Origin: Pseudomonadota bacterium
GTDB taxonomy: Bacteria > Pseudomonadota > Gammaproteobacteria > Acidiferrobacterales > Acidiferrobacteraceae
Assembly: GCA_021841585.1 (NCBI GenBank)
Contig: JAKBUS010000017.1
Coordinates: 1 to 41,846 of the forward strand
Length of the DNA: 41,846 bases
Direction: 5' to 3'
A program made the position numbers and the translations under genes. Below are positions 9,331 through 23,789 of the stretch, in pieces; positions within the stretch are counted from its first letter, which is position 1; every line of letters begins with the position of its first letter. Below the pieces are notes generated by a model. It was not told the DNA's origin, made no database searches, and was given only the letters and a program-made list of their open reading frames with translations.

Positions 9331-9600
9331 GTGTTTGCGTTGCCCATGGCGGAGCTGTTCGACAAGGCGATCAGCGTCGGCATGGGGCAGTGTCCGGTCA
9401 AGCGCTATAACGAGTACCTGCGCGATCTCATCATCACCGGACACGCACGGCCCGGCAAGATCGTAAGCCACCATATCCGTATTGATCAGGCGCCCGAGGC
9501 CTATAAGAAGTTCGACCAGAGGACTGATGGTTATACCAAGGTCCTGATCCAGTTCCCGGAGGGCGGGCGGCGTGAGACCTCAGGTCAGGGACGGATATAG
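9331..9600 (+). pseudogene. C-terminal remnant of a zinc-type alcohol dehydrogenase
   Basis: The 89-residue frame reads FALPMAELFDKAISVGMGQC, PVKRYNEYLRDLIITGHARP, then KKFDQRTDGYTKVLIQFPE. This is the last quarter of zinc-dependent medium-chain alcohol dehydrogenases of the formaldehyde-dehydrogenase-like type, which are near 380 residues. The catalytic zinc ligands and the nucleotide-binding fold are absent. The upstream 150 bases show no more of the gene. It ends against the 3' end of the convergent DsrE-like gene, overlapping it by a few bases. Probably non-functional. Confidence 0.75.
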
Positions 9601-9992
9601 GCCCAGCCCTGACGCTCACGGCGCACGACCTCGGCGATGCCTGAGCGTATGTAATGCACGAACGGCAGGATCGCGCCGGGCGCCAACCGGGCCCGGCGGA
9701 TCGCTGCGCGGCAGGCATCGATCGTAACACCGGAGGCGTAGAGTCGTGTCAGGTTCGGGGCTACGGGCGAACTTTTGAGAAGTATGTGAATGGCGGGGCC
9801 GAGGATCACAATCTCGATGTCATGGCCGCTTATGCCCGTGGCCTCGAGATTATGGACATTGTGCATGGCCACCTTCCAAGAGGCGACCTTGGTCGTGCTG
9901 ATCTGAAAGACCACGCCGGTGACTGCCGCCCGTCCTGGTGCTGGGCAGGCCAGCAGCAGGACGAGGACGCCCGCCAGCGCGGGTTTATGCAT
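9585..9992 (-). CDS. Secreted DsrE-like protein
   Basis: A 135-residue protein with a signal peptide (KPALAGVLVLLLACPAPGRA, residues 3-22) and a DsrE/DsrF-like domain from ~24. Family members of this fold bind or transfer sulfane sulfur through a cysteine. Here Cys94 (GVTIDACRAA) is the candidate, followed by the tail SGIAEVVRRERQGWAYIRP. The same domain, with an aligned cysteine and tail (AIAEIVRLQHRGWTYVRV), forms the C-terminus of the anti-sigma protein at 22474-23199. It starts five bases after the DUF302 gene stops, so the two are one transcription unit. A sulfur-handling role is inferred from the fold only. Confidence 0.82.
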   Translation of the reverse strand: MHKPALAGVLVLLLACPAPGRAAVTGVVFQISTTKVASWKVAMHNVHNLEATGISGHDIEIVILGPAIHILLKSSPVAPNLTRLYASGVTIDACRAAIRRARLAPGAILPFVHYIRSGIAEVVRRERQGWAYIRP

Positions 9993-9997
9993 GACGG

Positions 9998-10504
9998 CTA
10001 CCAGTTACCCTTGGCGCCGGCCCACAGGATGGAGTCGAGGTCATCACGGACACGCAGCGCCTGGGCGCGCAATTTGCCCTTCAGGTGCGCGCCTTGGATG
10101 ATCATGTTGAGGTTTAGCATCTCAAGCCATACACGGCCGCCGGCCGCCACCATGGTGATCCGGCAGGGCAGGTAGGCGGCGAATGCCGGATCGGCATCGA
10201 CCATGAGATGGGCAATGGGTGGGCTGCAAAACTCATACACCGTGAGCACCCCGGACTTGATGCCCATGTTCTTGAGCTGCTTTGAAAGCTGCAGGTCGCC
10301 GACATATTTCATGTTGACGGTATCGGCCTCGATCTTCATGGCCTGCAGTGCGCTCTTGGGGGAGACGCCCTTGGCAAGCGGGACCTTGATCACGGTTTTG
10401 TCGAGGTTGATATGGGGTCCCTGGATCGCGTTCAGCGGGTTATGGGCGTAGCAGGTGCCAATGGTGCCAAGCGCGAACGCGGCTCCGATGAGAAATCGGC
10501 GCAT
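9998..10504 (-). CDS. Secreted DUF302-family protein
   Basis: A 168-residue protein with a signal peptide (MRRFLIGAAFALGTIGTCYA, cleavage near 20/21). The segment YEFCSPPIAHLMVDADPAFA followed by YLPCRITMV is the DUF302 signature, including its two conserved cysteines. The molecular role of DUF302 is not established; members are often found near sulfur or thiol oxidation genes. Its C-terminus adds about 40 residues after the domain core. It is the first gene of a two-gene unit with the DsrE-like gene and has AAGGAG upstream of its ATG. Confidence 0.8.
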   Translation of the reverse strand: MRRFLIGAAFALGTIGTCYAHNPLNAIQGPHINLDKTVIKVPLAKGVSPKSALQAMKIEADTVNMKYVGDLQLSKQLKNMGIKSGVLTVYEFCSPPIAHLMVDADPAFAAYLPCRITMVAAGGRVWLEMLNLNMIIQGAHLKGKLRAQALRVRDDLDSILWAGAKGNW

Positions 10505-10641
10505 GACGGCGGTTCTCCTTATGATCGGTTATCTGGGGTCATCCTTTAGTCCTACAGGATGGCGCTAAATCCTCGCGCTTACAACCCCGTGACACGCAGG
10601 AATGCGGAAATTTCCCTGGAATAATTTCATCTCCCGATCCG

Positions 10642-12048
10642 TCACCAGTCCGCCAGCGCCGGCCTCACGGCCCTCACAAGTTCGCGGAAACGCATCTGGA
10701 TCCGTTCGAGCGCGGCCTGCGTCGTGCCCTCGAAACGCAGCACCAGGATGGGGGTCGTGTTGGAGGCGCGAACGAGACCAAAGCCGTCCGGGAAATCGAC
10801 GCGCAACCCGTCTATGGTCGTCACCCTGGCGTCGGGAAAATGAGCGGCCTGGACCAAGAGGTCCACGAGCGCGTGCGGGCTTTCCGTGACCGGCAGCTGG
10901 ATCTCGGGCGTATTGACCGTGTTCGGCAGGCCGGCGAACACCTCGGCTGGAGGGACCGGGCTCTTGGCCAGCAATTCCAACAGACGCGCCCCCGCATAGA
11001 GTCCGTCGTCGAAGCCGGTCCAGCGCTCCTTGAAGAAAATATGACCGCTCATCTCGCCGGCGAGCAGCACATCCCCTTGCCGTATGCGGGCCTTGATGAA
11101 TGAGTGCCCGGTCTTCCACATGAGCGGGCGGCCACCGGCCTTGCGTATGGCGGCGTCCACGACCTGCGAGCATTTCACGTCGTAGAGGATCTGGCCGCCC
11201 GGATGCCGCGACAGCACGTCGCGGGCGAACAAGACGAGCTGTCGGTCCGGCCAGATGATATCGCCGTTCGGCGCGATCACGGCCACCCGGTCGCCGTCGC
11301 CATCGAATGCCAGCCCGACATCGGCGCCGTCTGCGATCACGCGCGCCTGGAGATCCTTCAGATTCTCGGGTTGGCTCGGGTCGGGATGGTGGTTGGGGAA
11401 CCGTCCATCGATGTCGGCAAACAAGGAGGTCACCGCGCACCCGAGCGCGCGAAACAGCGCCGGCGCGAGCTCACCGGTGGCACCATTACCGCAGTCGAGG
11501 ACGATCTTGAGCGGCCGCGCGAGATGCACGTCCCCCAAGACGCGATCGAGATAGGCCTGGCGGACATCGGCCGTGCGGCTCGTGCCGGTGCCCGCATGAA
11601 GGCGGTTCTCAACGAGCCGCTCGTAGAGGGCCTTGATCTGGGCGCCGGACAAGGTCTCCTCGCCGAGGAGGATCTTCAGGCCATTGTACTGGGGCGGGTT
11701 ATGACTGCCCGTTAGCATGACGCCCGAGCCCGTGCCGAAGGCGAGCGTCGCGAAGTAGAGCAGGGGGGTCGGGACCAGCCCGATATTGATGACCTCGCAG
11801 CCGCTTGCCACGAGCCCCGCGCTCAAGGCCTCGAGCAGGACGGGTCCGGACAGCCGGCCGTCGCGCGCGATCACGATCTTCGTGCATCCGCGATCACGTG
11901 CCTCGCTGCCGATCGCCTGGCCGATGGCGCGCACGTACCCGGGGCTAAGTTCGACGTCGACAATGCCGCGTATGTCGTACGATTTGAAAATCCCGGGTGG
12001 CGGAAGATCGGTGCGTTCGGTGCTTGGCGCAAGAGGCGTGGCGGTCAT
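10642..12048 (-). CDS. algC: Phosphomannomutase/phosphoglucomutase
   Basis: Interconverts hexose 1- and 6-phosphates, feeding GDP-mannose and UDP-glucose for LPS and exopolysaccharide. The 468-residue product has the N-terminal FKSYDIRG motif, the phosphoserine loop TGSHNPPQYNG (Ser115), the metal loop DGDGDR at 249-254 and the sugar-binding GEMSGHIFF segment. The length and order match AlgC of pseudomonads. It is the last gene of coaBC–dut–algC, 35 bases after dut. Preference for mannose over glucose cannot be told from sequence alone. Confidence 0.95.
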   Translation of the reverse strand: MTATPLAPSTERTDLPPPGIFKSYDIRGIVDVELSPGYVRAIGQAIGSEARDRGCTKIVIARDGRLSGPVLLEALSAGLVASGCEVINIGLVPTPLLYFATLAFGTGSGVMLTGSHNPPQYNGLKILLGEETLSGAQIKALYERLVENRLHAGTGTSRTADVRQAYLDRVLGDVHLARPLKIVLDCGNGATGELAPALFRALGCAVTSLFADIDGRFPNHHPDPSQPENLKDLQARVIADGADVGLAFDGDGDRVAVIAPNGDIIWPDRQLVLFARDVLSRHPGGQILYDVKCSQVVDAAIRKAGGRPLMWKTGHSFIKARIRQGDVLLAGEMSGHIFFKERWTGFDDGLYAGARLLELLAKSPVPPAEVFAGLPNTVNTPEIQLPVTESPHALVDLLVQAAHFPDARVTTIDGLRVDFPDGFGLVRASNTTPILVLRFEGTTQAALERIQMRFRELVRAVRPALADW

Positions 12049-20968: not shown

Positions 20969-21400
20969 ATGGCAGCCCCCCAGACCCCCTTTTTGACAGT
21001 CGATATCATTATCCGTCCGGATGGGCACCCGCATGGCGTGATCTTGATCGAGCGCGGCCATCCCCCATGGGGCTGGGCCTTGCCCGGCGGTTTCGTGGAT
21101 GTCGGCGAACGGGTGGAGGAGGCCGCGCGCCGCGAGGCCCGTGAGGAGACCGGCCTTGTCGTGACGCTAGAGGCGCTGCTTGGCTGTTATTCCGACCCGG
21201 CCCGCGACGCGCGCGGCCATACGGTATCGCTCGTCTATATCGCGCACGCCTCCGGCGTGGCGCGGGCCGGAGACGATGCCCGGCGCGCCGAGATCGCCGA
21301 TATCCGCCGCATCACCGTGCCGCTCGCCTTTGATCATGCTCGGATCCTCAATGACTACCGGCGGTTCCGGGAGTCTGGCGAGCGGCCCGCCCTGGAATAG
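20969..21400 (+). CDS. Nudix hydrolase
   Basis: A 143-residue pyrophosphohydrolase with a complete Nudix box, GGFVDVGERVEEAARREARE followed by ETGL. The preceding HPPWGWALPGG and the later segment TVSLVYIAHA recall ADP-ribose pyrophosphatase-like or 8-oxo-dGTPase-like members, but the substrate cannot be assigned. The ATG at 20969 is chosen over GTG at 20966 because GAGGA sits five bases before it. Its last 53 bases overlap the end of the convergent beta-propeller gene. Confidence 0.9.
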   Translation: MAAPQTPFLTVDIIIRPDGHPHGVILIERGHPPWGWALPGGFVDVGERVEEAARREAREETGLVVTLEALLGCYSDPARDARGHTVSLVYIAHASGVARAGDDARRAEIADIRRITVPLAFDHARILNDYRRFRESGERPALE

Positions 21401-22487
21401 TAAAGGCGGTAATGCTGTAGGGGTCGGCATCGGAGGCCTCGGCGGTCGTGCCTATGGCCGTGAGCAGACCGCTGCTGTGGTCCAGGCGATAACGGCTAAT
21501 CGTACTGTTCCCAAAGTTGACCGCGAATACGAAGCGCGCCGCCGTGTCGAGCGTAAGGGAGAAGGGGTAGCCGCCGGTCGGCACGTGCCCGACGTGCGTG
21601 ATGCGGCCATCGGCCTGGTCGATGCGAAAGATTGAGATGTCGTTGGCGCTGGTGTTGGCGACGAAGAGGTAGCGGCCGCTCGGGTCTATGACCAGCGAAT
21701 CCGGGTGGTGGTCAAAGGGCTCGGTCACCCGGTCTTTCAGGGCCAGCCGGCCGTTGGCGCCGATGGCCAACACCAGAAGGACGTTCGCGCGGAAGTCGGC
21801 GACATACAAAAACCGTCCGTCGGGGCCCACCGCGAGCCCGTAAGGGCCATCGCCCGGGGGTTCATGAAACACCCCCAGGGGTATGAGCGCCGCATGGCCC
21901 GGCGCCCGCCGATACATGCCGATCGTGGCGTTGCCGAAGTTCGCGACATAGGCGTAGCGGCCGTTCGGCGTGAAGGTCACGGAATAGGGCTTGGCCCCCG
22001 GCGCCTCATGGACGCGGCCGTCGGGGATCAGTACCCCCTGCCGGCCGCGCATGCGGTAGATGCCCACCGTGCTGTCGCCGCTATTGGCGACGTAGATGTC
22101 GTGCCCACCGGGGCTTGCGGTCACGCTGAAGGGGTTGGTGCCTGGTCCTTGAGGACGCACCGCGGCGCTCGCGAGCCTGCCGTCGGTGGGGTCTATCCGA
22201 TAGGCGCTGACGGCGTGCGCGAGACTGTCGGCGGTGACCACATAACCCAGTGGGTCGGCCACGACCGACTCCGGACCCCCTGGGGTCGGCACCGATTGCG
22301 ATGCCACGAGGTTGCCCTTGCCGTGTTCGGCGTAGACGTTGACCGTACTGTTGTTGTAATTGGCGACATAGACGAAGGTGCGGGCGTGCGCCAGGACGCT
22401 CAGCAGGCATAGGCCGAGAACCCGCAGCGGCGTGCTGTGATATCGGCTCGCGCGCGTCCGCGACCGGTCTTGCTCAGACACGGACAT
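21348..22487 (-). CDS. Secreted seven-bladed beta-propeller protein
   Basis: A 379-residue protein with a signal peptide (hydrophobic core LRVLGLCLLSVLAHA, residues ~21-36) and seven YVTN-type repeats. Each repeat has the pattern GRYxYVANxxxxTIxxYR (for example NGRYAYVANFGNATIGMYRR). The first strand RTFVYVANYNNSTVNVY pairs with the last, closing the ring. The family includes 6-phosphogluconolactonase-like and surface-layer propellers, and no catalytic site can be assigned. Its start overlaps the anti-sigma gene's end by 14 bases, so it belongs to the sigma operon. A role as ligand or protein-binding partner of the sensor is inference. Confidence 0.85.
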   Translation of the reverse strand: MSVSEQDRSRTRASRYHSTPLRVLGLCLLSVLAHARTFVYVANYNNSTVNVYAEHGKGNLVASQSVPTPGGPESVVADPLGYVVTADSLAHAVSAYRIDPTDGRLASAAVRPQGPGTNPFSVTASPGGHDIYVANSGDSTVGIYRMRGRQGVLIPDGRVHEAPGAKPYSVTFTPNGRYAYVANFGNATIGMYRRAPGHAALIPLGVFHEPPGDGPYGLAVGPDGRFLYVADFRANVLLVLAIGANGRLALKDRVTEPFDHHPDSLVIDPSGRYLFVANTSANDISIFRIDQADGRITHVGHVPTGGYPFSLTLDTAARFVFAVNFGNSTISRYRLDHSSGLLTAIGTTAEASDADPYSITAFTIPGRAARQTPGTAGSH

Positions 22488-23199
22488 ACGTCCATCCGCG
22501 GTGCTGAAGACGGACGATCTCGGCGATCGCCGAGGGGACGATTACGGCTTGCGGCAACAGGTGCGGATCGATGCCCTTGCGGCGCTTGAGGCGGTTGATG
22601 GTGTCCTGGCACGCGGCGAATATCAGGTTCGGATAGCGCGCCTGAAGCGCGGCGATGCGCGCCGGAAAGGGCGACAGATGCCGGCGCAAAAGCGCGAGGC
22701 CCGGGCCATCGGCCAGGATCTCGACCTTCGCCTGGCGGTGATCGGCGCGGTAACGGGCAAGGAGATGCTGCGCCTCCTCGAGCACCTGGCGCATATGGGC
22801 ACGGTCACCATTGTCCAGATGAAACAGCACCTTGGTGGTAAGGTGGGTCGTGGCGCGCGCGATCGCGGTCACCGGGCGTGGCGGCACCCCCGGGGCCCAC
22901 AAGGCGCGTAGCGACCAGCCGAGCGTCACCCCGATCAAAAGCACGATGGGCGCAATCAGCGGGGCCAGGCGCGAGGCTAGGTGCTGGCGCGGCGTTTCGC
23001 GGTGTTCTGGCGTCGGCGGGTTATCATAGGCGAGCCGCACCAGATCCGAGATCTTGCGCAATTCGCAGACCTTGCGGTTCAGCTCCTGGTCGCTGTTTAT
23101 AAGCGGATAGACGCGGCCCTTCTCATCGCCGTCGATCTGGTTATCGACGAAGGCGTTGAGGAACTCATCCGAGAGCCCGGGTCCTTCCGATTCGGTCAT
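22474..23199 (-). CDS. Membrane anti-sigma protein with periplasmic DsrE-like sensor domain
   Basis: A 241-residue single-pass protein. Residues 1-60 are cytoplasmic and resemble anti-sigma factors (SDEFLNAFVDNQIDGDEKGR, RKISDLVRLAYDNP). A membrane helix spans ~79-101 (LAPLIAPIVLLIGVTLGWSL). Residues ~120-241 form a DsrE-like domain in the periplasm, with Cys197 (FAACQDTINR) and the tail AIAEIVRLQHRGWTYVRV. These match Cys94 and the tail of the free DsrE-like protein at 9585-9992. No zinc HxxxCxxC motif is present. The ATG overlaps the sigma stop as ATGA. The inferred role is to hold the sigma factor until a sulfur or redox signal is sensed outside the membrane. Confidence 0.82.
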   Translation of the reverse strand: MTESEGPGLSDEFLNAFVDNQIDGDEKGRVYPLINSDQELNRKVCELRKISDLVRLAYDNPPTPEHRETPRQHLASRLAPLIAPIVLLIGVTLGWSLRALWAPGVPPRPVTAIARATTHLTTKVLFHLDNGDRAHMRQVLEEAQHLLARYRADHRQAKVEILADGPGLALLRRHLSPFPARIAALQARYPNLIFAACQDTINRLKRRKGIDPHLLPQAVIVPSAIAEIVRLQHRGWTYVRV

Positions 23200-23738
23200 T
23201 TCACTCTCCGCATCCTTGGTGTGGCGGCCGCCATATCCGGGAGCAATAAGGCCTTCAGGGCCGCGCGCGCGCGGCACAGCCGGCTCATAACGGTCCCGCT
23301 TGGTATGCCCAGTATCGACGAGACTTCATTATAAGAGAAACCTTCTAAATCAACCAGGGTCACGACCTGCCTCTGCCCCTGGGGGAGCCTTGCGATGGCG
23401 GCGCGGACGCGCGCGGCGAGTTCCGAGCGTATGTGCTCGGTCTCGAGGCAATGGTCGCACGCGATGTCCATGTCATCGATGTCTTCGGCCTCGCGTTCGC
23501 GTCGATGGTGGTCGCGAAAGCAGTTGGTCATGATACTGAAAAGCCATGCCTCCCCGGCCCCGGGATCGCGCAGCTGATCGTGTTTTTGCCAGGCCTTGGT
23601 GAGCGTCTCCTGGACCAAGTCGTCAGCCAGGGCGGGGTTGTGGGTCCAGGCGTAGGCAATGCGATAAAGGCGCGGGCGGCTGACCTCCAGGGTCTTTTTG
23701 AACTCCCGCGAGCGGCATAACAACTGACGGATGCCCAT
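23196..23738 (-). CDS. ECF-type RNA polymerase sigma factor
   Basis: A 180-residue group 4 sigma factor. Region 2 is RLYRIAYAWTHNPALADDLV then QETLTKAWQKH, which melts the -10. Region 4 is PQGQRQVVTLVDLEGFSYNE then VSSILGIPSGTVMSRLCRAR, a helix-turn-helix that reads the -35. No region 1.1 or 3 is present, as usual. It is the first gene of a three-gene operon with its anti-sigma partner and the propeller. An ECF-like promoter at 23764-23789 suggests autoregulation. Confidence 0.93.
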   Translation of the reverse strand: MGIRQLLCRSREFKKTLEVSRPRLYRIAYAWTHNPALADDLVQETLTKAWQKHDQLRDPGAGEAWLFSIMTNCFRDHHRREREAEDIDDMDIACDHCLETEHIRSELAARVRAAIARLPQGQRQVVTLVDLEGFSYNEVSSILGIPSGTVMSRLCRARAALKALLLPDMAAATPRMRRVK

Positions 23739-23763: not shown

Positions 23764-23789
23764 GACGGTGCCCTATTGTTATTTATTCC
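23764..23789 (-). promoter_or_regulatory. Candidate autoregulated ECF promoter
   Basis: On the reverse strand GGAAT (23789-23785) is followed after 17 bases by CGTC (23767-23764), the common ECF -35/-10 pattern. It is 26 bases from the sigma start codon, and GAGGAG serves as ribosome-binding site. Recognition by this sigma factor is inferred from position and pattern. Confidence 0.5.

Follow-up and report, generated by a model that had tools for sequence, protein, structure and literature searches.

We analysed a contig of 41,846 nucleotides (JAKBUS010000017.1, hereafter the window, one of the 124 contigs of a 2.57-Mb genome of the family Acidiferrobacteraceae), in which the gene of an extracytoplasmic function (ECF) sigma factor is followed by one whose product combines a membrane anti-sigma factor with a DsrE domain. 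Sequence comparison and structure prediction make it likely, in our judgement, that this pair works as an ECF switch responsive to sulfur, in which the sigma factor is tethered at the inner membrane and the DsrE domain of the anti-sigma factor serves as a new periplasmic sensor. Structure prediction, read together with the sequences, gives the second protein a predicted three-helix domain of the anti-sigma type, a single membrane-spanning helix and a DsrE domain in which one cysteine is invariant. The promoter motifs argue strongly that the sigma factor would activate, through GGAATAA-N14-16-CGTC promoters, its own operon together with DsrE genes and the sox genes of thiosulfate oxidation, and dsbD is perhaps also in this predicted regulon. 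In many sulfur oxidizers, such a switch appears to activate the genes of sulfur oxidation. The original prediction, made by a model from the letters of the window and their open reading frames, had described a transmembrane switch sensing reduced sulfur or thiol redox; it was right on the anatomy and probably right on the class of signal.

The fusion protein and its operon

The operon and the parts of the fusion protein are the following:

23196-23738, reverse strand: ECF sigma factor, 180 residues (Pfam Sigma70_r2, 4.1e-16; r4_2, 9.3e-18)
22474-23199, reverse strand: membrane anti-sigma factor fused to a DsrE domain, 241 residues, ATG at 23199
23023-23169, reverse strand: cytoplasmic anti-sigma-like domain, residues 11-59, three helices (AlphaFold2 block means >90)
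22900-22965, reverse strand: transmembrane helix, residues 79-100 (AlphaFold2; 19-mer from residue 79, hydropathy 2.0)
22480-22839, reverse strand: DsrE domain, residues 121-240, predicted periplasmic (AlphaFold2, Foldseek, VIA-align)
21348-22487, reverse strand: secreted 7-bladed lactonase-type propeller (Lactonase PF10282, 3e-35)

Structure prediction had been chosen beforehand as the test on which the DsrE claim could fail, and it shows the fold. AlphaFold2, run with 23 sequences, gave an alpha/beta domain at residues 121-240 with block-mean predicted local distance difference test values of 92-98. Residues 123-240 match MTH1491 (1l1s) with an E-value of 3.7e-8, and the same protein is the top Foldseek match of the domain (E 3.8e-9). 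In VIA-align, residues 121-241 superpose on 1l1s with a Z of 17.9 and a root-mean-square deviation of 1.5 over 110 residues; the best ten rows, with DsrEFH, YchN, TusBCD, SSO1126, 1l1s, 2pd2 and 2fb6, have Z values of 11.8-17.9, and the next row falls to 8.2. The Pfam profile PF02635 was matched by 13 of the 23 family members at E up to 0.1 (best 6.8e-6), the protein of the window being unmatched. Since Pfam was silent on the fusion and stayed just under its cut-off on the free DsrE-like protein of the window, the DsrE call needed both profile and structure evidence.

Cys197 (22609-22611) is invariant in all 68 aligned full-length homologues, and the defined fold together with this one invariant cysteine makes the question of sulfur sensing directly testable. 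The NCBIfam thiosulfate dehydrogenase model NF052225 covered only the last 27-28 residues of the protein of the window and none of the 16 other DsrE-domain sequences given to it, and is kept as a lead only.

A free relative of the fused domain is encoded elsewhere in the window:

9585-9992, reverse strand: free secreted DsrE-like protein (DsrE match of 22.0 bits, just under the 22.7 cut-off)
9998-10504, reverse strand: secreted DUF302 protein, paired with the free DsrE gene (PF03625, 2.9e-13)

The free DsrE gene lies about 12 kb from the sigma/anti-sigma operon and adjoins the DUF302 gene in 10 of the 10 genus genomes read. Its claimed homology to the anti-sigma C-terminus is borne out over residues 121-240, with 26% identity and E 1e-6 in a single comparison. 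The aligned cysteine, part of the same claim, falls in one column of a 17-sequence alignment, whereas BLAST itself places the two cysteines a few residues apart. The column of Cys197 is occupied in 16 of these 17 fused and free DsrE sequences, the exception being L038 9382-9822.

The N-terminal part weakly resembles class I anti-sigma domains. Helices are predicted at residues 11-18, 24-36 and 38-59 (AlphaFold2, 23 sequences), and with E up to 1 the profile zf-HC2 is matched by 14 of the 23 family members (best 1.7e-4) and RseA_N by 8 (best 0.0019). The NCBIfam anti-sigma model NF052375 reached E 0.001 in the protein of L039, below the family cut-off. When the anti-sigma domain was searched alone with Foldseek, 11 of the best 20 rows, including the top four, were sigma/anti-sigma complexes. 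VIA-align of the whole model, examining only the candidates of Foldseek, a list filled by the DsrE domain, returned no anti-sigma chain. Matches of the anti-sigma profile to PDB sequences, namely phage gp7 chimeras (E 0.04-0.4) and MucA/RseA (0.25-0.33), were set aside as unusable as proof. The zinc motif Hx3Cx2C, which is optional and found in about 56% of class I anti-sigma members (PMC7406223), is missing from the protein of the window, with N41, C45 and R48 at its positions. An anti-sigma role is nevertheless likely, because the gene sits directly after a sigma gene in 66 of the 67 named full-length loci, and the fusion protein would act as the anti-sigma factor of this partner.

The anti-sigma factor had been described as single-pass, in agreement with the one membrane helix found at about residues 79-100. 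The N-side flank of this helix is the more positive one in 47 of 68 homologues, and an Ala/Pro-rich linker of about 20 residues comes after it. Helix and flanking charges suggest a topology with the N-terminus inside and the DsrE domain outside, which agrees with the signal-peptide-like starts, judged by eye, of the homologous free DsrE proteins.

Gene coordinates, with Pfam for the sigma factor and the propeller, confirm the claimed trio of sigma, anti-sigma and propeller genes with overlapping ends. Of the overlaps given in the original prediction, the 14 bases between anti-sigma and propeller genes are correct, and the 3 bases between sigma and anti-sigma genes are actually 4 (23196-23199). 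The propeller gene is probably co-transcribed with the other two. The solved chains closest to the sigma factor include ECF SigH and SigE, and the fusion protein is 94% identical to one on a contig labelled Acidiferrobacter sp.

Distribution of the module and its link to sulfur oxidation

The genome survey suggested with the original prediction found the same fusion widely. Homologues matched in 53 of 60 relatives and in 117 of the 369 genomes of the class, with full-length proteins, read by eye, in at least 64 of the 369. A chance fusion or an assembly artefact was rejected, both halves being found in one locus in at least 30 of 39 same-order genomes outside the window's family, a count that includes rows split by a long linker, as well as in the class genomes above. 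Among 398 genomes of the phylum, searched at E up to 1e-12, full-length matches came from three genomes only, all of the window's class and one of them the genome of the window; in the 16 further genomes with a match, the alignment starts at residue 77 or later. Rare carriers may exist outside the class. Spread by plasmids was also rejected: there were no full-length matches in 72,556 plasmid records, and the 19 partial matches were confined to the C-terminal part (15 of these 19 rows examined).

Named records with the fusion, from metagenome-assembled genomes (MAGs) or strains, carry the labels Sulfuricaulis, Sulfuricella, Sulfurimicrobium, Gallionella, Thiodiazotropha and Chromatiales. In lucinid symbionts, an ECF sigma gene annotated as rpoE is among the most transcribed genes, according to the available text of PMC12172469. 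MAGs of Thiodiazotropha carry the fusion (L134, L135, L144), and this rpoE may or may not be the fusion-linked sigma gene.

The gene content of the module was compared over 72 named loci, of which those of one genus are not independent. The locus genes come from a custom caller that missed some: it called 59 sigma genes in 57 of the 72 loci and left L134, L135 and L144 largely uncalled. Outside the window's family (L096-L147, placed there through contigs shared with surveyed genomes and through identity, not by individual look-up), 49 of 52 loci have a free DsrE gene within 2.6 kb of the module; it follows the module directly in 29 of them and lies upstream in divergent orientation in 19. The propeller gene, present in 14 of the 72 loci (L081-L094), fills the downstream place in the window's family. 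A porin-like gene occurs in 21 of the 72, typically past the divergent DsrE gene, and one representative matches Porin_O_P.

Some loci hold additional copies. A second sigma/DsrE-anti-sigma module, about 30% identical and with a divergent gene for a secreted DsrE protein, is found at L049 7582-8867 and L051 4570-5558, with similar matches among the relatives surveyed, and two DsrE-anti-sigma genes stand close together in each of L100 and L101. In L132 (9351-10632), another sigma-like gene stands after the module's DsrE gene and is overlapped by a gene for a 261-residue protein.

The module is tied to sulfur oxidation in several ways. The sox genes adjoin it in L113, L119, L122 and L146 (Pfam checks; L113 by clustering only), and in L073 SoxZ is encoded 1.1 kb from the fusion. 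A SoxZ match was obtained in 63 of the 64 genomes read as full-length carriers versus 134 of the 305 others, a co-occurrence that may reflect shared lifestyle or ancestry and in which some SoxZ matches are short fragments. These data lend independent support to the proposal of a reduced-sulfur signal: the module has sox neighbours in several lineages, its carriers tend to have SoxZ, and the motif described below stands ahead of sox and DsrE genes.

In Rhodobacterales, a secreted DsrE protein resembling the fused domain is encoded after soxYZAB and two genes in the soxC and soxD places, named by place only (L150, L151); in L153 only the end of such a sox cluster is visible. Among the called genes beside the secreted DsrE gene in L150, L151 and L153 there is no sigma/anti-sigma pair.

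Promoter motif and predicted regulon

Two full matches to the promoter motif are present in the window:

23764-23789, reverse strand: predicted autoregulatory promoter GGAATAA-N15-CGTC, upstream of the sigma gene
10618-10643, forward strand: second full promoter-motif match, antisense into pgm

In the window's order, GGAATAA-N14-16-CGTC is common to the regions ahead of 16 of 18 sigma genes; the other two belong to a second paralogue. The 72 named loci were then scanned up to 300 bp upstream of the gene starts. The form GGAATA[AG]-N14-16-CGTC precedes 46 of 59 called sigma genes, a count that is partly circular because the motif was derived from sigma upstream regions. The counts at DsrE and sox genes are free of that circularity: the motif precedes 26 of 59 short DsrE genes (<200 residues, including a few truncated anti-sigma calls and 5 genes from the DsrE-only loci L148 onward) and 1 of 795 other genes, a difference between DsrE and other genes with a Fisher p of 4e-32, uncorrected for relatedness. 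The single other gene is the soxY of L122, which adjoins the sigma promoter back to back. The opposite-strand control found the motif at 13 sigma, 11 DsrE and 4 other genes, while the reversed pattern gave 0, 0 and 0; in our reading, most of the sigma and DsrE matches on the opposite strand are expected from divergent sigma/DsrE pairs. A looser motif was found at 44 of 59 sigma genes, 21 of 59 short DsrE genes and 11 other genes. The 13 sigma genes without the strict motif (L096 onward) comprise 7 with a near variant and 6 with none, two of the latter at a contig edge.

Over whole genomes, the motif occurs 4 to 7 times per genome in 14 members of the genus and the reversed pattern 0 to 4 times; the genome of the window has six motif sites and no reversed one. 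These six sites precede the sigma operon, an exported DsrE gene, a pair of inositol-phosphatase and YgaP-type genes and dsbD, or lie antisense to pgm and within an AcrB-family gene; the last is probably a chance match. The site of dsbD is 75 bp ahead of the gene (L194 2807-2906) and suggests that periplasmic thiol reduction is co-regulated in the window's own species. In the window's genus (L191, L195, L196, L197, L208), the motif is found ahead of an inositol-phosphatase-family gene, followed by a YgaP-type membrane gene, which possibly points to CysQ-like sulfur metabolism. The site at 10618-10643 is kept, with a diverged spacer, in the 10 genus genomes read, always between pgm and the DUF302-DsrE pair and antisense to pgm, and is possibly the promoter of an antisense or small RNA.

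At sox genes, the motif stands within 90 bp upstream of soxYZ in the window's genus (G004, G008, G006), and in G004, G005 and G008 a GGAATAG site lies between soxA and a gene called soxB by its start and place. Among SoxZ loci of other fusion-bearing genomes, the motif was found in 6 of 30, each with a site some 1.2 kb upstream of soxZ; in 5 of the 6, those with called genes, the gene behind this site encodes a cytochrome c and occupies the soxX place, with a Pfam check in L237. The opposite strand gave 1 of 30 at these loci and 0 of 30 at SoxZ loci of the comparison set. The two sets were drawn from 53 of the 64 fusion genomes and from 39 SoxZ genomes outside the 64, some of which have matches to the DsrE half.

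Proposed mechanism, rival explanations and known systems

In the mechanism that we propose, periplasmic reduced sulfur, i.e. thiosulfate, tetrathionate or a protein-bound persulfide, would be the signal. Cys197, the putative sensor, would take up a sulfur group, either directly or by way of SoxYZ or the secreted free DsrE protein, and the charged DsrE domain would then shift its shape or oligomer, or bare a protease site, with release of the sigma factor. The free DsrE proteins, likely members of the regulon, would either supply the signal or return the switch to its resting state. Tentatively, and with well under even confidence, we propose the narrower form in which Cys197 takes sulfane or thiosulfonate from secreted DsrE or SoxYZ, so that the flux through the sox pathway, not a free small molecule, frees the sigma factor.

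Several observations weigh against the proposal of a periplasmic DsrE switch. Support for an anti-sigma domain in the protein of the window is weak: in the profile search of residues 1-241, by which the original prediction meant to identify both halves, Pfam matched neither this domain nor the DsrE domain, and even at E up to 1 the window's anti-sigma sequence has no zf-HC2 or RseA_N match. The Foldseek matches of the anti-sigma domain (RskA, ChrR and MucA complexes) all have an E-value of 1.3 or worse. Conservation of Cys45 (23065-23067) in the cytoplasmic domain, kept in 65 of 68 full-length homologues though the surrounding zinc motif is missing, is close to that of Cys197. To the circularity of the sigma count and the possible common ancestry behind the SoxZ co-occurrence are added data on sox itself: the soxXYZ copy of the window's own genome has no strict motif within 1.5 kb upstream, on a contig that stops after soxZ, and SoxZ loci of genomes not read as full-length carriers have the motif in 1 of 30, a modest contrast with the carriers (one-sided p 0.051). 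Finally, a DsrE gene beside the module is kept in only 1 of 15 loci of the window's family.

Three other explanations were considered. Sensing could be cytoplasmic, with Cys45 or intracellular sulfite triggering the release and the DsrE domain merely anchoring or oligomerising the protein. The near-constancy of Cys45 is in favour of this explanation, as is the report that added sulfite is non-inducing in Sinorhizobium meliloti, where the authors, in the available text, assumed that sulfite arises inside the cell (PMC3511301). A mere anchor, however, would not require an invariant Cys197, Sox proteins of the periplasm and exported DsrE proteins are among the predicted targets, and the outer positions of the optional zinc motif around Cys45 are N41 and R48 in the protein of the window; we regard cytoplasmic sensing as unlikely. 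An envelope-stress switch of the RseA type, responding by proteolysis to damaged periplasmic proteins and using the DsrE fold as a recruited protein-protein domain with no sulfur chemistry, appears more improbable still. The weak RseA_N and zf-HC2 matches of several members, the MucA/RseA chains weakly found in searches and the Ala/Pro-rich linker behind the membrane helix are compatible with it, but the motif sites with a downstream gene lead to sox, DsrE, the inositol-phosphatase pair and dsbD, Cys197 is invariant and nearly all carriers have a SoxZ match.

The third explanation is a variant of the proposed DsrE switch, in which the free secreted DsrE protein is the receptor and the fused domain docks it in one sulfur-charged state only. 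The closeness of a DsrE gene to the module in L096-L147 and the motif at short DsrE genes are consistent with this variant, and DsrE folds form hetero-oligomers, DsrEFH and the heterohexameric TusBCD being among the structural matches. The nearby DsrE gene is nevertheless rarely kept in the window's family, yet the fused cysteine is invariant, and the variant is in our view possible but doubtful.

The original prediction had not recognised the fusion as described, and no description of a DsrE/anti-sigma fusion was found in the literature searched, which left most subscription journals outside its reach. The original prediction did not mention an already known family of ECF factors that respond to sulfur and share this promoter consensus. 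Two candidate sources were rejected: in the available text of PMC10512742, the "anti-sigma" is a STAS domain, though "DsrE" is also present, and in that of PMC3511301 the "DsrE" text match is DsRed.

If the narrower form is true, in which the sox flux frees the sigma factor, this receptor would regulate periplasmic sulfur oxidation widely across the Gammaproteobacteria (GTDB sense). The sox system is a central route of thiosulfate oxidation, and the module, common among the sampled Sox-bearing genomes of the class and appearing to control sox, may be a general regulator of this guild. The module could also serve as a component of a biosensor for thiosulfate or polysulfide.

Arcobacter butzleri belongs to a distant bacterial group. 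Its ECF sigma 2 (AB1044) and anti-sigma pair raises sox expression and sulfur oxidation and is, like the fusion module with its predicted regulon, an ECF pair tied to sox; unlike the module, it is described in the available text with no mention of a DsrE domain (PMC3445524). The Acidithiobacillus TspS/TspR and RsrS/RsrR control sox and tetrathionate genes, with thiosulfate or tetrathionate as the proposed signal; unlike an ECF/anti-sigma pair, these are two-component systems, TspS/TspR being sigma-54 dependent (PMC6335251, available text). The DsrE of DsrEFH, DsrE3A and MTH1491 (1l1s) have the same fold as the fused domain. The cysteines of Metallosphaera cuprina DsrE3A take thiosulfate from tetrathionate, the other sulfur compounds tested being unreactive; in contrast to the fusion, such sulfur carriers are without a membrane helix or anti-sigma domain, and DsrE3A is placed in the cytoplasm in the available text (PMC4175335).

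The closest comparison is with the ECF26 group, represented by S. meliloti RpoE4/RpoE1 and Starkeya novella SigE/RpoE1 and known here from the available parts of PMC6527743 and PMC3511301. These are also ECF sigma/anti-sigma gene pairs, and the promoter consensus of the sulfite-induced RpoE4/SigE, -35 GGAAT and -10 CGTC (PMC6527743, PMC3511301), equals the motif of the fusion module. Induction is linked to sulfite, thiosulfate or tetrathionate, and the targets are genes of sulfite-oxidizing enzymes, whereas sox and DsrE genes are predicted as targets of the window-type sigma factor. S. novella RpoE1 is active on tetrathionate and its region, as in the window's family, has a propeller gene (YVTN; PMC6527743, PMC3511301). 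Most ECF26 anti-sigma factors are described in these parts as COG5662 proteins, with the DsrE domain unmentioned, and release of the sigma factor in sulfur-responsive ECF systems is said to occur "by an as yet unknown mechanism" (PMC6527743). The system of the window would work like these sulfur-responsive ECF sigma factors, and it may be one of them.

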